A stretch of DNA of 56,422 bases from Candidatus Nitrosopumilus sp. (GTDB lineage Archaea; Thermoproteota; Nitrososphaeria; Nitrososphaerales; Nitrosopumilaceae). The stretch is taken from assembly GCF_029882185.1 (NCBI RefSeq), contig NZ_JAOULD010000001.1, positions 1 to 56,422 of the forward strand, read 5' to 3'. Both the position numbers and the translations under genes were made by a program. Under the pieces are notes generated by a model. That model ran no database searches, was not told where the DNA came from, and saw only the letters and a list, made by a program, of their open reading frames with translations. How positions within the stretch are numbered: position 1 is the stretch's first letter; each line of letters starts with the position of its first letter. Shown here piece by piece: positions 11,899 to 35,323 of this stretch.

Positions 11899-12326
11899 TG
11901 AAGACATCTAGGTAATTTCTTGATTACTTGTACAAGTGATATTCTGCCAGGACCTGCAATCATTATGAGTAATGCCGATGCAAGTAAAATCAAATCTAAT
12001 TCTACTCCCCCTTTTCCAGTAATGCTTGATGCTCCTTTTACCATAAAAATTGCCCCCAACATAATGACTGAAATTAACGATGCTGATAATCTACTCAATA
12101 CTCCAATAATTATCAAAATGCCCGGAATTAATTCTGCCAATGCAATAGGAATTTGCATTTCTGCTGGTAATCCCATGTTAGGTAGATTTTCTGCAAATCC
12201 TGGATTAAATTTTGAAATTCCGTGAAGAATGAAGATCACTCCTAAGGCTGATCTTAATCCCATAAAGACAATGTCGTTTAGAAATTTCTCCCTAATCTCT
12301 GCAGTTGTCAATGCGTTCTTCTTCAA
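11895..12326 (-). CDS. DoxX-family membrane protein
   Basis: The 143-residue protein has four hydrophobic helices and the DoxX hallmark ALGVIFILHGISKF near residue 30, followed by a Pro-containing ELIPGILIIIG helix. DoxX proteins are small quinone-associated or redox membrane proteins; the role here is unknown. The start is TTG at 12324-12326, because an in-frame stop lies two codons upstream. The gene is divergent from the proteasome subunit and convergent with the M20 peptidase. Confidence 0.85.
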   Translation of the reverse strand: MKKNALTTAEIREKFLNDIVFMGLRSALGVIFILHGISKFNPGFAENLPNMGLPAEMQIPIALAELIPGILIIIGVLSRLSASLISVIMLGAIFMVKGASSITGKGGVELDLILLASALLIMIAGPGRISLVQVIKKLPRCLH

Positions 12327-12406
12327 TTTTCAGTATAATTATTTTGCCCATGAATTACACGTTAAATGTAGAAAGCCCTTTATTATGCGGCAAAATTATT
12401 TCAAAT

Positions 12407-13003
12407 ATGTCAATGTATATGCCAGGAGCAACTGCTGTTGGAATTACTTTTGATGGTGGTGTAGTTTTTGCGAGTGAAAAAAGGATCGCATTTGGAAACT
12501 TTTTGGTAAGTAAAACTACAAAGAAAACATTCCCTATTACTCCTAAGGTTGGTGCAACTTGTGCTGGTCTTGTGGCTGACATGCAAATTTTGACATTACA
12601 AATTGCAGCACTTGCCAAAATTAGAAAGATGGAACTAAAAAGAGATGTTCCTCCAAATACTGTAGCCAAAATGATGTCAAATATGATGTATGAAAGAAGA
12701 TACTTTCCACTATTGACTCAAGTGATCGTAGGTGGAGTTGTTGACAAACCTATCATGTATACTCTTGATCCTTTAGGTTCAGTACTTCCCGATGAATTTG
12801 CTGCAGTTGGAACTGGAGCTGAAATGGCGTTAGGTGTTTTAGATCCTCAATTCAAACCAAACATGACTAAAGATGAGGCAGTTGATTTAGCAAAACGTGC
12901 AGTTCGTGCAGCTGCTCTTAGAGATTCTGCAAGCGGTGATGGAATCGATATACTTGTAATCACTAAAGATGGCACCGAAGAATATTCAGAAGATATCAAG
13001 TAA
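12407..13003 (+). CDS. psmB: Proteasome beta subunit lacking the catalytic Thr1
   Basis: The 198-residue protein is a 20S proteasome beta subunit by length and by the pattern ATAVGITFDGGVVFASEKR. The usual mature N-terminus TTTVG is replaced: the residue after MSMYMPG is Ala, not Thr. Position 17 is Glu instead of Asp, while Lys33 is kept. By family knowledge Thr1 is the nucleophile, so this subunit should be inactive, like the non-catalytic beta of Sulfolobus. A longer ORF starts at 12305 but would overlap the divergent DoxX start. ATG 12407 gives a typical short propeptide and has a TTTATTATG box about 25 nt upstream. Confidence 0.9.
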   Translation: MSMYMPGATAVGITFDGGVVFASEKRIAFGNFLVSKTTKKTFPITPKVGATCAGLVADMQILTLQIAALAKIRKMELKRDVPPNTVAKMMSNMMYERRYFPLLTQVIVGGVVDKPIMYTLDPLGSVLPDEFAAVGTGAEMALGVLDPQFKPNMTKDEAVDLAKRAVRAAALRDSASGDGIDILVITKDGTEEYSEDIK

Positions 13004-17028: not shown

Positions 17029-17131
17029 AAGCCTGTTATTTTGTCTCTAGATTTTAAAATTACTAAAATTCAATCGATTTTCAGTTTAGTGAATTTAATC
17101 TTACTAAAACTAAAAACATTTCTTACACTTT

Positions 17132-17141
17132 GTCGGTTATA
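17132..17141 (+). promoter_or_regulatory. TATA-like box of cdvA
   Basis: TATACAAATC at 17132-17141 lies about 27 nt before ATG 17163, supporting a leaderless cdvA transcript and this start over the TTG at 17130. Confidence 0.55.
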
Positions 17142-17162
17142 CAAATCTCTAAACTATCACAC

Positions 17163-18041
17163 ATGACAAACAACGATATCGAAATTATCGGTAAAAATGT
17201 CAAAGACATGTACGGAACATTCATGGGCAAAGTCGTAGGAACAATAACTGATATTGACGGAAGTATACAATCCGTCGGCATTGACTGCGGTTCTCAAGGA
17301 TTACAGCAAATCCAATATGAGCAATTAGTAGTTCAAGGCGAAGTTGTTATTTTTATTCCAAAATGGAGACTAGACTCACAAAGACTCATTAGAGAAAAAC
17401 AATTAACTCTACGTCGATTGAAAGCATTGATTGACATTGTTTCAGAAAATGATGACATGAAAGCAGATGCAGAAATAATTCATGAAAAATACAAGTCAAA
17501 ACTTGTATCATTAGATGAAACAGAACGTGAAATCAAAGCAATACTTGAGACAAGATTGAATGAGTTAAATGAACAAATGAAGTCAGCTAAAATGTTATCG
17601 TTTGATGCAAAAATACAATACAAGAGCAATGAAATCTCTGACACAACATTTGAGACCGTGAAATCATGCACAACTGAGGTAATTGAGCATGTAACTCACG
17701 AAACAGCAGAAATCGCAAATGTGCAGAATAGAATTGCAGATCTTAAATTGGAAGTGCACGAGATAACATCTCCTCCAACATCAGACATCCAAGAATCAGC
17801 CGTTTCATATCTGGAGACTTCTGAACCACAACAAGCAGTTCAGACAATACTTCCAGAAGTACCAGTCGAATCAACAGTAATATCTTCAGAACTCATTGAG
17901 GCCCCTAGTATCCCTATACCAGAACCTCCTACTGAATCTGAAACAACCTTTGCATTTCCAGAACCACCCCAACAGGTGACCGCAGAAACTTCAAAAGACA
18001 ACAATGATAACGATTGGCTTGCAAGAATGGAAGCACAATAA
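17163..18041 (+). CDS. cdvA: Cell division protein CdvA
   Basis: The 292-residue protein has an N-terminal PRC-barrel-like beta domain (about 1-75; GTFMGKVVGTITDIDG). A long coiled coil (about 80-205) and an acidic Pro/Glu/Ser-rich linker follow. The short C-terminal tail NDWLARMEAQ would be the ESCRT-III (CdvB) binding region by analogy. CdvA recruits CdvB filaments at the division site in Crenarchaeota and Thaumarchaeota. As known for this phylum, cdvB and cdvC are not neighbours here. The codon use and the T-rich end suggest a well-expressed single gene. Confidence 0.9.
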   Translation: MTNNDIEIIGKNVKDMYGTFMGKVVGTITDIDGSIQSVGIDCGSQGLQQIQYEQLVVQGEVVIFIPKWRLDSQRLIREKQLTLRRLKALIDIVSENDDMKADAEIIHEKYKSKLVSLDETEREIKAILETRLNELNEQMKSAKMLSFDAKIQYKSNEISDTTFETVKSCTTEVIEHVTHETAEIANVQNRIADLKLEVHEITSPPTSDIQESAVSYLETSEPQQAVQTILPEVPVESTVISSELIEAPSIPIPEPPTESETTFAFPEPPQQVTAETSKDNNDNDWLARMEAQ

Positions 18042-26652: not shown

Positions 26653-27114
26653 TTATTTTTCAAGAGATGCTTTGAGATTTTCAAGCGATGCTTCGTAAAA
26701 TGCACCTAAAAATACCACAAAATCCAAGAATTGTTTTTCAGACATTTTCTTGCTATTTAGATATGATTGCCATGTTAATTCAACAAGGTTTTTGGATTTT
26801 GACTTTATTGAAATTGTTGCAACATACGCTCTTAGTGGCAATCCTTCTGTTGCAATATATGTGAAATATTCTCCTTTTTTCCATGCCACTATGTGTTCCT
26901 CAATTTTGTTTCCATCTTCAAATGTGATTAATCTTATTGCTCCTACATCCTTTTTCCTTTTAGATAGATATGTTGTTTTTTTAACATCTACAACCCATGT
27001 TGGCAATCCTGCAATGTTGCTAATTTTTTTCCATACTTTGTCTTTTGATGCTTTGATTTTGATTGTTTTTTTGACTGTCCCTGTATGAAATGTTTTTTTT
27101 GCAATTTTTACCAT
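26653..27114 (-). CDS. SRPBCC / coenzyme-Q-binding-like protein
   Basis: The 153-residue protein opens with KTIKIKASKDKVWKKISNIAGLPTWV, the standard start of polyketide cyclase/dehydrase and CoQ-binding START-like proteins, and ends in a long helix. Likely a lipid or aromatic ligand carrier. It is divergent from the coiled-coil gene at 27192. Confidence 0.85.
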   Translation of the reverse strand: MVKIAKKTFHTGTVKKTIKIKASKDKVWKKISNIAGLPTWVVDVKKTTYLSKRKKDVGAIRLITFEDGNKIEEHIVAWKKGEYFTYIATEGLPLRAYVATISIKSKSKNLVELTWQSYLNSKKMSEKQFLDFVVFLGAFYEASLENLKASLEK

Positions 27115-27191
27115 GCATTTCTACAAAATATGCTGAATTTTAAATTTTAATTGTACAACCATTTTTAATCCCCTGAAGGAAAAGATAACAA

Positions 27192-28478
27192 ATGGTCTTT
27201 GGATGGGTTAAAAAGAAAGAAGAAGAAAAATCTATTGAAGAAATTCCTCAAAATAAAGAAATTTTGCTTGCGGATGTACCTAAAATAATCTCTAAAATTG
27301 GAGAATTACGCAAATCTCAAACTCTGAATGAAATAAACGGTTTGAGAAATAGTACCGAACCTCTAATCAAAGATTTGATAAAAATTGGTAATGCTCTTGA
27401 AAAAGACAATTTGAACATTGATGATATAGACAAACATCTTGCAATCATTGTAGTGCGTGGTAAAAAACAGGTTATTGACATGATCAAAAAGGATGTAATC
27501 TCATTACCTAAAATCTCTTCTTTTGATGATGCTGAAAAATTAAACTCGGTTTTGAGTCTAATTCTCAAAAAAGTAGGAGATGTTTTGGGAAGACAAACTA
27601 GAGTCATACACATTTTTGCAAAAAAATATGCTTCACAATTAAAAGAAAATCTCGAGGTAATGAATGCAAATCGTTCTGAAATTAATAAAATATTAAAAAA
27701 TTATGACTCTACAAAATCTCTTTCTGATGAGATAAATGATGCAATAAAACAAATAAAAAATTTAAGTAATTTACATGAAGAAAAATTGCAAAAAATTACA
27801 GATGCTAATGAAAATGCCAAGTCAACTCAAGAAAAAATAAATGATATTCAAAATTCGATTGATCATATCAAATCGTCTGAAGATTACAAAAAATATCTTG
27901 ATTTGAAAAATACTTTGAATAAATTTGCAACACAAAAATCAAAAATCAAAGATCAAATTAACACTCAATTTACTAAAATCTCTAGACCTTTGAGTAGATA
28001 CGAATATGCTTCATCTTTAGATAAAGATGAAAAGAATATCTTGTCTATTTTGGTGACCGAACCGTTTGATGTATTGTCTTTTGATAATAAAGATTCTATT
28101 ATTGTGATTCTTGAAAATGTACGAAAAGGTGTTTCATCTGGTTCTATATCTGTCAAAGATGTCGATAAAACATTTTCTCAAATTACTGAGCTTGAAGAGT
28201 CTTTGGATGGCTTTATCAAACAAGTTTTAGAATATAATGAAAAATACCAAGAAATGAAAAATAATGTAAATTTCCTAATGCCTGATAATCTGGGTTCTTT
28301 GGAAGATGATCTTGAAAAAAACACTTTATTGTTTGATGAATATAGACTCAAATCTAAAACTTTTCAAGATGAAATAGATGAAATAGATTCAAAAATTCCT
28401 GAACTTGTGTCTAAAATTGAACAAAAACTGCGACAGTTTTCTAACACTCGGTATACTGTTTTACTATCTCAAAATTAA
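27192..28478 (+). CDS. Large coiled-coil protein (428 aa)
   Basis: Most of the chain is predicted coiled coil. The N-terminus MVFGWVKKKEEEK is basic and amphipathic, possibly membrane-associated. A central region (about 75-150) is denser in hydrophobics, and a short globular segment with Pro (SRPLSRYEYASSL) lies near 260. It resembles other long archaeal coiled-coil proteins but no named family. Four genes in the same direction follow with short gaps: JAMM protease, membrane zinc-ribbon protein and a small protein, so a common task is likely. Confidence 0.7.
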   Translation: MVFGWVKKKEEEKSIEEIPQNKEILLADVPKIISKIGELRKSQTLNEINGLRNSTEPLIKDLIKIGNALEKDNLNIDDIDKHLAIIVVRGKKQVIDMIKKDVISLPKISSFDDAEKLNSVLSLILKKVGDVLGRQTRVIHIFAKKYASQLKENLEVMNANRSEINKILKNYDSTKSLSDEINDAIKQIKNLSNLHEEKLQKITDANENAKSTQEKINDIQNSIDHIKSSEDYKKYLDLKNTLNKFATQKSKIKDQINTQFTKISRPLSRYEYASSLDKDEKNILSILVTEPFDVLSFDNKDSIIVILENVRKGVSSGSISVKDVDKTFSQITELEESLDGFIKQVLEYNEKYQEMKNNVNFLMPDNLGSLEDDLEKNTLLFDEYRLKSKTFQDEIDEIDSKIPELVSKIEQKLRQFSNTRYTVLLSQN

Positions 28479-28503
28479 ATTAGTTCCAAACCTATGTTCT
28501 ATT

Positions 28504-28902
28504 ATGTTCTTCAAAAAGAAAAAATTTGAACGTAAAGTAATGTTGAAAAAAGATGTTCATGATAGTATTCTGTCATTTTGTCAAATGAAGCACCCAAATG
28601 AAGGAATTTTGATTTTAAAAGGAAAATCAAAAAATGGCGAGGTAAAAATAGATGGACTTGTGATTCCTCCTTTCAGTGAAACAGGTCCTACTTTTGCAGG
28701 TTTTCCTCATTCTTTCTTACCTTTTGACATGAGTTATGTTGGAATTGTTCATTCACATCCAAGTGGTTCTGCAGAGCCTTCTGTAACTGATTTACATAAT
28801 TTTTTTGGTTTGGTATCAATGATTGTAAAGTCTCCATATGATGATGATTCTATTTTTGCATGGGATAGTAGCGGCAATCCTATTCCTCTATCCATTGAAT
28901 GA
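28504..28902 (+). CDS. JAMM/MPN+ metalloprotease
   Basis: From ATG 28504 the 132-residue protein has all JAMM zinc ligands: Glu33 (NEGILIL), His83 and His85 and Asp96 in HSHPSGSAEPSVTD. This fold cleaves isopeptide bonds of ubiquitin-like modifiers or removes C-terminal peptides of sulfur-carrier proteins. No ubiquitin-like partner is visible in this window. A longer ORF starts at 28405 but lies inside the preceding gene. It follows the coiled-coil gene by 25 bases. Confidence 0.88.
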   Translation: MFFKKKKFERKVMLKKDVHDSILSFCQMKHPNEGILILKGKSKNGEVKIDGLVIPPFSETGPTFAGFPHSFLPFDMSYVGIVHSHPSGSAEPSVTDLHNFFGLVSMIVKSPYDDDSIFAWDSSGNPIPLSIE

Positions 28903-28934
28903 TTTGAGAAATATGCTGATAATGCAGAACAAAA

Positions 28935-29315
28935 ATGAAGAAACTTTATATCCGTTTTAACGATACTTTTAATGACTTGAATCCTCAACTCAAGAGATAT
29001 TATATTTTCTTAGGCGCATCTTTGGTATTTAGTATCGGATTGCAAATAGGACTATCAGCTCTTGGCGTTCCGTGGTTTATCAGCATAGGATTAGTTATGG
29101 CAATTTTCATCTTGTTGCCAATGATTATGCGAAGACGTCAAATGAGTAAAATGGGCAGCTATGGAAGTGATTCTGGGACTGGTGGAGGATTCTTTGGAAT
29201 GGGTTCACAAGGTGGTTCTGGCGGTGTTAGATACGTATGTCTTGTATGCAATAACAAACACAAAGGCGGAACTTGTCCACGATGTGGTTCTAAAATGCAA
29301 AGAGCCGATTTTTAG
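28935..29315 (+). CDS. Membrane protein with C-terminal zinc ribbon (126 aa)
   Basis: Two hydrophobic helices (YYIFLGASLVFSIGLQIGL and WFISIGLVMAIFILLPMIM) are followed by a Gly/Ser-rich linker (GSDSGTGGGFFGMGSQGG) and a four-Cys ribbon, VCLVC and CPRCG. The ribbon would lie in the cytoplasm. It could anchor a partner such as the JAMM protease at the membrane; that is inference from context. Confidence 0.75.
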   Translation: MKKLYIRFNDTFNDLNPQLKRYYIFLGASLVFSIGLQIGLSALGVPWFISIGLVMAIFILLPMIMRRRQMSKMGSYGSDSGTGGGFFGMGSQGGSGGVRYVCLVCNNKHKGGTCPRCGSKMQRADF

Positions 29316-29325
29316 ATGAAAAGAT

Positions 29326-29637
29326 ATGTCATTGGATGAACTTCGTAAAAAAGTGATTTTCCATAATTCAGTTGATGTATGGATTGCAATATGTTCAGAA
29401 AAAAATGTTAATTGGACAAATCCTGAAGAATACAAAAAATTCATTGCGCATTTATTAAAAAATAATCTGAATCTAAAGGCGTTTAATCTCTGTGCTCATG
29501 AAGCAGGTGCTACTGAGGACGAAAAAGTAAAATTTACAGAAACTTTGGCCGAGACAAAAGAAGATCCTAATTCTCTAACATATACCATCAAACTAAATGA
29601 TGCCGCTTTAGATATAATTCGCAGTTATTCTACATGA
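29326..29637 (+). CDS. Hypothetical helical protein (103 aa)
   Basis: The product opens MSLDELRKKVIFHNSVDVWI and is soluble and helical, with SYST at the end. No family recognised. It follows the membrane protein by ten bases and ends next to the convergent permease gene. Confidence 0.65.
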   Translation: MSLDELRKKVIFHNSVDVWIAICSEKNVNWTNPEEYKKFIAHLLKNNLNLKAFNLCAHEAGATEDEKVKFTETLAETKEDPNSLTYTIKLNDAALDIIRSYST

Positions 29638-31005
29638 TTATCTTTTAAGTTTAGGATTAATTATTGCATCTAAAGCATTGCCGATAAACACAAAGGCTAA
29701 TCCTGTTATTGCTATCATGACTCCTGGTGGCATGATCCACCACCACATTCCTCTTGCTGCTGCTCCAAACGTATTTGCATCATGTAAGATTTGGCCCCAT
29801 GTTGGAAATGTTGGGTCTCCTAATCCTAGAAAACTTAATCCTGCCTCTGTGGTTATTGCAGCTGGAACTGAAATTGCAATACTTGCAAATGCATATGGTA
29901 ATAATTGAGGCACAATATGTTTTAGAATTATTTTAGAATCTTTTTGACCCATCATATTTGCTGCATCAACATAGCCTCGAGTTTTAATTTGAAGTGACAT
30001 GCTTCTTGATACTTTTGCTATGCCCACCCACCCAAATACCATCAAAAATCCTACCATCACAAATATGCTATTACTGATTGTTACTGAAAGAATTATGAGA
30101 AATGGTAGTGCTGGCAATGCATAGATGACATCATTAAATCTCATCATTACTTCATCTGTTTTTTTGCCTTTGTAACCTGCATATACTCCATAAAGCAATC
30201 CTGCAACAACTGATGCAATTGATACTGCTAGACCTATGAACAATGCTAGAGGAGTTCCCCAAAGCAATCCTATTGCCAAATCGCGTCTTAATTCATCTGT
30301 GCCCATTATCCCAAATGCCTTACCTCCTACAATCAGTTTTGATTCATAAATTCGGTTTTCTGAATTTATTCCATACAGATCTATCAAAAAAATATAGTCT
30401 CCTTTCAGTGGCTCATTTACATGGGTTTTTGAAAACACAATATCTTCTGCAGATAGTCTTTTGAATTCAAATTCAAAATTCTCTGATTGTAATGACAAGT
30501 TTTTCTTTATTGCTTGTTCAGTTGAAAAAATCCTTTCACTGTGAACGGTTTTCTCATTTGAATAAGGAAGTGCTGTTGTAAGTAAATTCAATTTAACTCC
30601 GTCTGGTCGTATGACTGACATTTGTAGGAGCGGATTGCCTGAATATTCTGATGAGAATTCATAGATGAAATCATTTGGAAAATCAACATAATCGAAATTT
30701 AATCCAAACTGATGCGATATTAATTCTATTTCCTCACTTGTTATTTTTTTTATGTTAGGCTCATTCAAAATTTTATGTTCTGGAATTTTTTCACTCAAAA
30801 ATATGTTAATCCAAATAGGAATCGCTACTTTTGGATTTTCAATCCAGTTACTTGGATTGTTCCATTCTTGAAATGTTTCTATTGGGATGGCAATTATTGC
30901 TATGATTGAAACTATTCCAAGTGTCAAAAGAATTACTATTCCTGCAATTCCCATCTTGCTTTTGAGAAATTCTTGTTTGATTTCTTGTGGAGCAATGTTA
31001 TTCAA
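29638..31005 (-). CDS. Peptide/nickel-type ABC transporter permease, DppC-like
   Basis: The 455-residue protein has one N-terminal helix, a ~190-residue extracytoplasmic domain rich in charged residues, then five helices of a BPD permease domain with the EAA-type loop near ANMMGQKDSKIILKHIVPQLLPYAF and LSFLGLGDP. The large extracytoplasmic insert is longer than in bacterial DppC. It overlaps the DppB-like gene by four bases. No ATPase or substrate-binding protein gene is in the window, so substrate is unknown. Confidence 0.88.
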   Translation of the reverse strand: MNNIAPQEIKQEFLKSKMGIAGIVILLTLGIVSIIAIIAIPIETFQEWNNPSNWIENPKVAIPIWINIFLSEKIPEHKILNEPNIKKITSEEIELISHQFGLNFDYVDFPNDFIYEFSSEYSGNPLLQMSVIRPDGVKLNLLTTALPYSNEKTVHSERIFSTEQAIKKNLSLQSENFEFEFKRLSAEDIVFSKTHVNEPLKGDYIFLIDLYGINSENRIYESKLIVGGKAFGIMGTDELRRDLAIGLLWGTPLALFIGLAVSIASVVAGLLYGVYAGYKGKKTDEVMMRFNDVIYALPALPFLIILSVTISNSIFVMVGFLMVFGWVGIAKVSRSMSLQIKTRGYVDAANMMGQKDSKIILKHIVPQLLPYAFASIAISVPAAITTEAGLSFLGLGDPTFPTWGQILHDANTFGAAARGMWWWIMPPGVMIAITGLAFVFIGNALDAIINPKLKR

Positions 31006-32144: not shown

Positions 32145-32477
32145 ATGTCCTTTGATAGAGAAAGAGAAATGCATACCACAACATGTGGTGACTGTGGAAA
32201 TGAATGTCAAGTGCCATTCAAGCCAAAAGAAGACCGACCTGTTTATTGCAGGGAATGCTTCCAAAACCACAAACCAGCTCCAAGACAAGGTGGCGGTAGA
32301 TTTGGTGGAAGATTTGGCGGTGATCGCGGCTCTAGATTTGGTAGAAGAGACGACAGACCACGTGAAATGCATGATGCAAAATGTGGTGACTGTGGAAATG
32401 ATTGCCAAGTGCCATTCCAACCAAAAGAAGACCGACCTGTTTATTGCAGGGAATGCTTCCAAAACCACAAAAATTAG
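32145..32477 (+). CDS. Duplicated zinc-ribbon protein with Gly/Arg-rich linker
   Basis: Two nearly identical modules (CGDCGNECQVPFKPKEDRPV then CRECFQNHK) flank an RGG-like linker (RQGGGRFGGRFGGDRGS). Each module has four Cys for zinc and an RPVYCRECF signature found in archaeal and bacterial cold-shock-like or RNA-associated CxxC proteins. The RGG linker suggests RNA binding. The two modules are also similar at DNA level, so the duplication is recent or kept by conversion. Divergent from the DppB gene. Confidence 0.85.
   Translation: MSFDREREMHTTTCGDCGNECQVPFKPKEDRPVYCRECFQNHKPAPRQGGGRFGGRFGGDRGSRFGRRDDRPREMHDAKCGDCGNDCQVPFQPKEDRPVYCRECFQNHKN
32184..32273 (+). repeat. 90-bp module repeat, copy A
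   Basis: Copy A of the zinc-module repeat; copy B lies at 32382-32471 with only a handful of mismatches. The period is 198 bp. Confidence 0.85.
32382..32471 (+). repeat. 90-bp module repeat, copy B
   Basis: Copy B of the same repeat; ends at AACCACAAA just before the stop. Confidence 0.85.
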
Positions 32478-34663: not shown

Positions 34664-35323
34664 ATGGATTTGGAAAAATTCCGAAACGATGTTTCTGAGA
34701 TGACTGATAAGCTCTCAAAAAATCTTAAAGAAAACGATGTCTCCAAACTTCAGTATGTCCGACAACAGTTAATCGAAATGTATAGAAAAAACCTAGTTAA
34801 AATCAACCACTCTATTTTGGAATTGATTTGTGCTAGCACTTTAATTTCACGGGGTTATGCTGTTGAGGTTGAAAAAGATATCACTGACATTCTTGTGTGT
34901 GATATTTTTGCAAAGAAGGGCGGCGGTAACACGATAATTGAAATTGAAACGGGTTTTACTCCTCCAGAACATGCAATGGATACTATAGATTATTTCTCTG
35001 CAAGAATCATGAGCAAGATTGCAAGATATAGCCAATATTGTTCAAAATTTTCATTGGCTACCCCCGTGGTTGGAATTTTACCTATATCCAAAATTTTCTT
35101 GTTGCCGCCAAATGCAAGAAAAAAAGAAGATGTACAGAAAATCAAAGATTTATGTGATCGTTATTACAAAAATCCTTCAATAAAATATGATGATATCTTA
35201 AATGCTCATCTTCATTCTATTTACTTGATTAATATCGATAAAGGATTTGCCAAAGAACTTGATCCTCAAGGATATGTTGATTTAACTGATCGTCTTCTAA
35301 ATAGAAGCGAAGTAAACTATTAA
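34664..35323 (+). CDS. Conserved hypothetical protein, possible nuclease-like fold
   Basis: The 219-residue protein has an N-terminal helical region and then a core with GYAVEVEKDITDILVCDIFA followed by NTIIEIETGF. A D-(X)n-ExE arrangement in a strand-turn-strand setting recalls restriction-endonuclease-like folds, where ExK is usual; the Lys is missing here. I treat the fold as a guess. Conserved in this phylum by my recollection only. Confidence 0.55.
   Translation: MDLEKFRNDVSEMTDKLSKNLKENDVSKLQYVRQQLIEMYRKNLVKINHSILELICASTLISRGYAVEVEKDITDILVCDIFAKKGGGNTIIEIETGFTPPEHAMDTIDYFSARIMSKIARYSQYCSKFSLATPVVGILPISKIFLLPPNARKKEDVQKIKDLCDRYYKNPSIKYDDILNAHLHSIYLINIDKGFAKELDPQGYVDLTDRLLNRSEVNY

Follow-up and report, generated by a model that had tools for sequence, protein, structure and literature searches.

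A conserved gene cluster of Nitrosopumilaceae combines an AfJAMM-type JAMM protein with a coiled-coil protein, a putative membrane zinc-ribbon protein and a 103-residue protein

The window, a stretch of 56,422 nucleotides from Candidatus Nitrosopumilus sp. (NZ_JAOULD010000001.1), corresponds to contig C80 in an assembly of 102 contigs totalling 1.66 Mb, 99.28% complete. It encodes a JAMM metalloprotease, here called JAMM2, within four consecutive genes on the plus strand: CC (coiled-coil protein), JAMM2, ZNR (zinc-ribbon protein) and U103 (103-aa protein), separated in this order by gaps of 25, 32 and 10 nt. A first-pass annotation made from the sequence had described four same-direction genes with gaps of about 10-32 nt; this arrangement holds, and its limits of 27192-29637 are exact. 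We find that the four genes form a conserved cluster in the Nitrosopumilaceae, a family of ammonia-oxidizing archaea, and we propose that the cluster encodes a partner-dependent, membrane-held JAMM isopeptidase module. We assign this reading a probability of about 0.4.

The cluster was followed in two samples, 151 genomes from the order including 34 of the window's family, and 80 named family loci from another collection, in which the window's near relatives are Nitrosopumilus and further Nitrosopumilaceae (G, C and L denote our genomes, contigs and loci, f and g our family and genus labels). Among the 151 genomes, JAMM2 is matched in 125 (124 without G002, whose match is a JAMM1 locus), CC in 77, U103 in 95 and ZNR in 76. 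All four genes are present in 34/34 genomes of the window's family, and gene order and strand are identical in 33 of them; in the remaining genome, G084, CC-JAMM2 and ZNR-U103 lie on separate contigs. Treating the four genes as one group, as the first-pass annotation did, is thereby supported. Spacing is variable at two positions. JAMM2 and ZNR stand 2.3 kb apart in G129 and 4.3 kb apart in G147, and CC and JAMM2 about 290 nt apart in three family genomes. The named loci contain all four genes in 72 cases, CC, JAMM2 and ZNR in four, CC and JAMM2 in three and JAMM2 alone in one (L155); seven partial loci end at a contig edge, as judged by coordinates. The ZNR-U103 gap does not exceed 35 nt in 72/72 loci, and the JAMM2-ZNR gap is larger than 600 nt in 6/76. 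CC identity drops to about 30% within the family in the order-genome search and down to 38% across 79 loci. The conservation of the cluster is not due to chance, because the same order and strand are kept in 33/34 genomes although CC identity falls to about 30%. Among the matches listed in open-licence PubMed Central, no titles or abstract openings describe the cluster; a printed description remains possible. One family genome, G024, carries a second JAMM2 copy (L042, 4934-5413) that is 67% identical to the window JAMM2 and adjoins a gene that by eye is CBS-domain-like.

JAMM2 matches the Pfam family Prok-JAB with 47.2 bits (cut-off 25). Residues E33, H83, H85, S93 and D96 are invariant in 20 aligned orthologues, and the pattern EXnHS/THX7SXXD is present in 80/80 named family loci and in 84/85 loci of a wider set from 30 family labels; in the one exception, L309, a TAG lies within the JAMM match. 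Judged from these alignments, the full JAMM motif recorded at first pass is indeed intact, as in catalytic JAMM/MPN+ metalloproteases. The genome encodes two JAMMs, JAMM2 in the window and JAMM1 (L001, contig C35). The best PDB match of JAMM2 is AfJAMM, with 1.3e-11 by phmmer and 2.6e-21 as a profile, and the next protein follows at 1.4e-5; PfJAMM1 is absent from the PDB matches of the JAMM2 profile at 0.01. For JAMM1 the best PDB match is PfJAMM1 (about 1e-13); AfJAMM does not appear among its matches at 0.01. A midpoint-rooted tree of 46 rows, with a long branch between its clades and with neither an AfJAMM nor a PfJAMM1 row, splits 19 JAMM2 rows from 27 rows of JAMM1 or JAMMs adjacent to ubiquitin-like (UBL) proteins at 100/100 support. 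The desampylase model NF041370 (cut-off 130) gives 25.3 bits for JAMM2 and 52 bits for JAMM1, both under the cut-off. By sequence, JAMM2 is closer to AfJAMM than to PfJAMM1. Its profile matches 148/300 phylum genomes at E <= 1e-8, a few weakly. Apart from G024, several phylum genomes have two JAMM2-profile matches, not all of them necessarily JAMM2. Assignments to defence systems were rejected. For a CBASS type II or Bil E1-E2-JAB operon, no E1 was found in 101 JAMM2 loci (the window, 20 and 80 loci), with E2 not searched separately, and for a defence-type JAB the best PADLOC JAB stretches span just 24-29 residues or so around the motif.

CC, ZNR and U103 do not reach any Pfam family cut-off. 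The AlphaFold2 model of CC (mean predicted local distance difference test, pLDDT, 87; predicted template modelling score, pTM, 0.62) comprises a helical bundle, an 85-residue helix and a coiled-coil hairpin. CC residues 1-9 are conserved at >=90% in 50 aligned rows, and residues 1-18 have pLDDT < 50. Residues 81-154 of CC are also a conserved region. A hydrophobic, lysine-rich start is also found in JAMM2, where 76/78 family proteins pass a simple test for it. On the 20-row JAMM2 alignment, 5/8 rows from the family and f8 and 2/12 others pass, and two of the three failing family or f8 rows begin upstream of the tail. The same test is passed by 39/74 CC tails, a low rate because the test demands four basic residues. 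ZNR has hydropathy peaks at about residues 22-46 and 42-65 and cysteines at 102, 105, 114 and 117; its CxxC..CxxC pattern is kept in 73/74 family proteins, the remaining one having X there. Membrane or partner contacts are a possible role for the CC and JAMM2 tails, which may alternatively have an effect on translation start. The membrane-linked processing or quality-control complex suggested at first pass is a guess, with which the two-helix ZNR and the hydrophobic-lysine tails fit.

The CC bundle 37-173 retrieves unrelated bundles at Z 9-11 in VIA, and we claim no fold for CC because such values are common among helical proteins. Foldseek ranks first, for the CC model, one chain from a 60S ribosome/UFM1-E3 complex (E 0.013, TM 0.25, root-mean-square deviation 22.7). 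Matches of CC in Pfam and NCBIfam to coiled-coil proteins (SipB, SMC, chemoreceptors) are all under the cut-offs, and those of its profile in the PDB are coiled coils and designed bundles; both were discarded as uninformative. U103 is modelled as a small alpha/beta protein with a mean pLDDT of 76.4. Its structure search has no match with E <= 0.001, and its top VIA rows are mostly winged helices, all weak at Z <=3.6, with COP9 signalosome chains at Z 3.0. We treat the winged-helix likeness of the U103 model as a lead only.

The first-pass annotation had noted that neither a ubiquitin-like modifier nor a sulfur carrier, the normal targets of a JAMM protease, is present. The window indeed contains neither, but elsewhere the genome encodes two ThiS-family UBL domains, both N-terminal in larger proteins, and one E1. 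The two fusions are UBL-E1 (L055, 442 aa) and UBL-Cgi121 (L053, 257 aa); UBL-E1 and UBL-Cgi121 fusions in Thaumarchaea were already reported by Makarova and Koonin in 2010 (PMC2948915). The recommended search for UBL genes ending in GG succeeded in finding two GG-bearing domains, but their GG is internal and not terminal. It is invariant in 12/12 aligned UBL-Cgi121 and 15/15 aligned UBL-E1 sequences, and the sequence after it varies in length and letters, a pattern expected of a GG that ends up as a free terminus. The idea that the organism has no ubiquitin-like protein is ruled out by these fusions, and the premise of a missing substrate is corrected to two UBLs that both need a protease for their release.

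JAMM1 is the likelier cutter of such fusion precursors, because UBL-E1 in other families has a JAMM1-like gene immediately before it. This is the case in 6/7 loci that were picked since their JAMM and UBL-E1 matches lay adjacent. A cysteine-synthase-like gene precedes the pair in 4 of those 6 loci (by eye). In L185, L186 and L204, from other families, the cysteine-synthase-like gene, the JAMM and the UBL-E1 fusion lie in series, which recalls the mycobacterial mec-cysO-cysM operon.

Outside the family, parts of the cluster reappear. In f8, which may be the Nitrososphaeraceae, JAMM2 and U103 lie on the same strand and <2 kb apart in 15/31 genomes holding both (by eye), and in its genus g38 ZNR stands between them, with the sequence confirmed in L050, L196 and L202. 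An f3 locus, L040, has a broken zinc-ribbon frame 3' of JAMM2. CC matches are found in 43 genomes outside the family at 18-28% identity, a range in which coiled-coil similarity may mislead. The JAMM2-(ZNR)-U103 set looks older, with CC joining in Nitrosopumilaceae, because in f8 JAMM2 and U103, and in one genus also ZNR, are kept together and CC is elsewhere. The co-occurrence proposed as a check at first pass is strict in the window's family and partial in f8, but absent or unlinked beyond. Over the 85 wider loci we found no general JAMM2 neighbour. The commonest adjoining gene, seen in four family labels and within 300 nt in 22/23 loci, encodes a class I glutamine amidotransferase; representatives (L036, L034, L037, L051) are closest to GMP synthase subunit A, under its cut-off. 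In f10 a proteasome alpha gene lies <1.5 kb from JAMM2 on the opposite strand in 22/23 loci, the 23rd ending near JAMM2, and we count this linkage in favour of the proposed module.

For this module we envisage JAMM2 as a latent enzyme like AfJAMM and Haloferax volcanii JAMM2 (HvJAMM2), active only with partners, that would free UBLs from conjugates and so serve UBL recycling. CC, U103 and ZNR would be its partners in Nitrosopumilaceae, CC as a scaffold; the membrane anchor would consist of ZNR and the hydrophobic-lysine tails that CC and JAMM2 carry. The simple cutting of UBL-GG-E1 and UBL-GG-Cgi121 precursors would be done by JAMM1, not JAMM2. The passages of PMC300881 available to us report negative assays of AfJAMM on ubiquitin derivatives, casein and D-alanine compounds. 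Those of PMC4895103 (2016) report recombinant HvJAMM2 to be non-functional and the A. fulgidus JAMM grouped with it to be likewise inactive, and they speculate that this group depends on partner proteins; H. volcanii jamm2 is nevertheless required for TBP2 turnover by the SAMP-proteasome system, and its deletion stabilises TBP2. A partner-dependent, membrane-tethered mechanism appears best supported by these published data on the JAMM group, for which, long without a shown in vitro substrate, the cluster supplies three candidate partners. A more specific version, in which the otherwise silent AfJAMM-type protease JAMM2 is turned on by joining CC, U103 and ZNR in a streamlined, lid-like complex anchored in the membrane, is distinctly unlikely. 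If true, it would supply the partners whose existence was speculated on in 2016 for type 2 archaeal JAMMs, and it would be a counterpart in archaea to the activation of JAMMs in COP9, BRISC and the proteasome lid.

Several observations weigh against the proposed module. We infer the link of JAMM2 to UBLs, and it is partly contradicted. JAMM2 is kept in 11/14 genomes without a detectable UBL and in 113/137 with one (Fisher p = 0.72), and JAMM1 follows UBLs, with 1/14 and 98/137 (Fisher p = 3e-6); in both tests related genomes are not independent and most UBL-less genomes belong to one genus. It is mainly because JAMM2 does not track UBLs that our confidence is held at the value given above. An order-specific second UBL profile (E <= 0.5), run on the 14 UBL-less and three positive genomes, matches G023 and all three positives but not one of the 11 UBL-less genomes that keep JAMM2. 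Because 8/11 of these genomes have E1, the searches may overlook a divergent UBL. One of the UBL-less genomes, G010 (L167), is listed as complete and has an E1 with an extra C-terminus, rhodanese-like by eye, and no detected ThiS/MoaD-type protein. Neither an E1 nor a convincing UBL lies in the flanks of the 101 JAMM2 loci, in a search that gives UBL in five of five control loci and E1 in four of them; both weak UBL-profile matches, at E 0.025 and 0.83, are located in frames of CC. The locus L155, of family type, holds JAMM2 without the other three genes, and no contig ends there. Outside the family, no CC match shares a contig with JAMM2 at a distance of 5 kb or less (by eye; many are on other contigs), and 49/90 JAMM2 genomes have no detectable CC (by eye). 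The proteasome linkage of f10 is found in 0/62 of the remaining wider loci, all 85 having been checked, and the CC and U103 models have no decisive structural match.

That JAMM2 does not track UBLs would also fit if JAMM2 were a metallopeptidase acting on a substrate that is no beta-grasp ubiquitin-like protein, with the UBL work left to JAMM1. We consider this somewhat unlikely. In its favour, G010, a single contig listed as 100% complete, has JAMM2 and no UBL by two profiles, AfJAMM is reported inactive on ubiquitin derivatives in the part of PMC300881 cited above, and JAMM2 neighbours elsewhere include, besides the class I glutamine amidotransferase, a glyoxalase II-like hydrolase (both under exact-name cut-offs) and an epimerase-like gene (by eye). 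However, the E1 genes of 8/11 UBL-less JAMM2 genomes indicate that a UBL may have been overlooked, and the prokaryotic JAMMs for which the portions of the literature at hand report a substrate act on UBLs or UBL fusions: DRJAMM cuts MoaD-MoaE (PMC8832034), HvJAMM1 cuts SAMP1-MoaE (PMC4443979), and CsJAMM (Csub_C0703), whose gene is numbered next to a SAMP gene, cuts SAMP precursors (PMC6043591). These same precedents could be taken to mean that JAMM2 needs no partners to process the UBL-GG-E1 and UBL-GG-Cgi121 precursors and free their mature GG ends, which would suit two detected UBLs that are both fused and carry an invariant GG before a variable sequence. We regard this as very doubtful, since the known fusion cutter HvJAMM1 is nearer to JAMM1 (52 versus 25.3 bits, both under 130) and it is a JAMM1-like gene that lies directly before UBL-E1 in six of the seven loci chosen for adjacency.

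It is also conceivable that the four genes are mere neighbours in a region of conserved order and that their proteins do not cooperate. By eye, two other genera of the family (L041, L047) likewise retain the SRPBCC and ABC permease genes at the flanks, JAMM2 neighbours differ from family to family, and the JAMM2-ZNR spacing reaches 0.6-4.3 kb in some genomes (2/33 genomes; 6/76 loci). Yet the short gaps persist over wide divergence (CC down to 38% across 79 loci), and in a second family, where CC is not part of the locus and the flanks differ, JAMM2 stays linked with U103 or with ZNR and U103, which makes mere neighbourhood unlikely. The membrane-held isopeptidase module remains our preferred reading, and the features on which it builds are collected in Table 1.

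Table 1. Positions of the cluster genes and their elements in the window
Feature	Position	Strand	Basis or remark
CC, 428 aa	27192..28478	+	Model: helical bundle ~37-173, then long coiled-coil hairpin ~175-420
CC N-terminal tail, MVFGWVKKK here (consensus MVFGWGKKK)	27192..27218	+	Disordered in model, nearly invariant
JAMM2, 132-aa JAMM/MPN+ metalloprotease, AfJAMM type, ATG start	28504..28902	+	Profile match, alignment, tree
JAMM2 N-terminal tail, MFFKKKKF	28504..28527	+	Hydrophobic-lysine start, simple test
Predicted catalytic Glu33 of the JAMM motif	28600..28602	+	Invariant in 20 orthologues
HSHPSGSAEPSVTD, JAMM2 residues 83-96, HxHx7Sx2D, predicted metal-binding part of the motif	28750..28791	+	Alignment, pattern match
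ZNR, 126-aa putative membrane protein, two hydrophobic segments and C-terminal zinc ribbon	28935..29315	+	Hydropathy, Cys pairs
ZNR zinc ribbon, C102..C117	29238..29285	+	CxxC pairs
U103, 103 aa, low-confidence winged-helix-like model	29326..29637	+	Predicted structure
Divergent intergenic region 5' of the cluster, 77 nt	27115..27191	.	Gene map

The divergent upstream neighbour of the cluster is the SRPBCC-like gene (26653-27114, minus strand, Polyketide_cyc2), and the convergent downstream neighbour is the ABC permease gene (29638-31005, BPD_transp_1). Further genes of the window, all on the plus strand, deserve mention. A proteasome subunit gene at 12305-13003 (PF00227, 163 bits; beta type by eye), whose true start is probably further in, lies about 15.5 kb from JAMM2. 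A CdvA gene, encoding a part of the archaeal division machinery, is found at 17130-18041 (PF18822, 92.5 bits). At 32145-32477 a 110-aa protein is encoded that by eye has two near-identical zinc-ribbon-like halves with a GGRFGG-rich linker between them. A 219-aa protein without a Pfam match (34664-35323) resembles, by eye, the 228-aa protein directly 3' of JAMM2 in the f2 locus L033 (5549-6235).

Eukaryotic JAMMs are activated in the 19S lid, COP9 and BRISC complexes through helical or winged-helix partners. Compared with these, the winged-helix hints of U103 are weak (Z <=3.6), and no PCI domain is shown for it. The closest solved relative of JAMM2 is AfJAMM (A. fulgidus AF2198; PDB 1oi0, 1r5x), with the same minimal MPN+ domain and motif. 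JAMM2 differs from it by the hydrophobic-lysine N-terminal tail and by the family-specific cluster; gene partners of AfJAMM go unmentioned in the passages of PMC300881 at hand. The likeness of type 2 H. volcanii JAMM2 to the window protein follows from its grouping with the A. fulgidus JAMM in PMC4895103, and the corresponding passages of that paper name no partner. The desampylases HvJAMM1 and PfJAMM1 have the superfamily and the catalytic motif in common with JAMM2, but they resemble the genome's JAMM1, whereas JAMM2 is far under the desampylase cut-off and belongs to the opposite clade of the tree. The MoaD-MoaE-type fusions likewise carry an N-terminal UBL with GG in a larger protein, and in the genome studied here the UBL is joined to E1 or to Cgi121.

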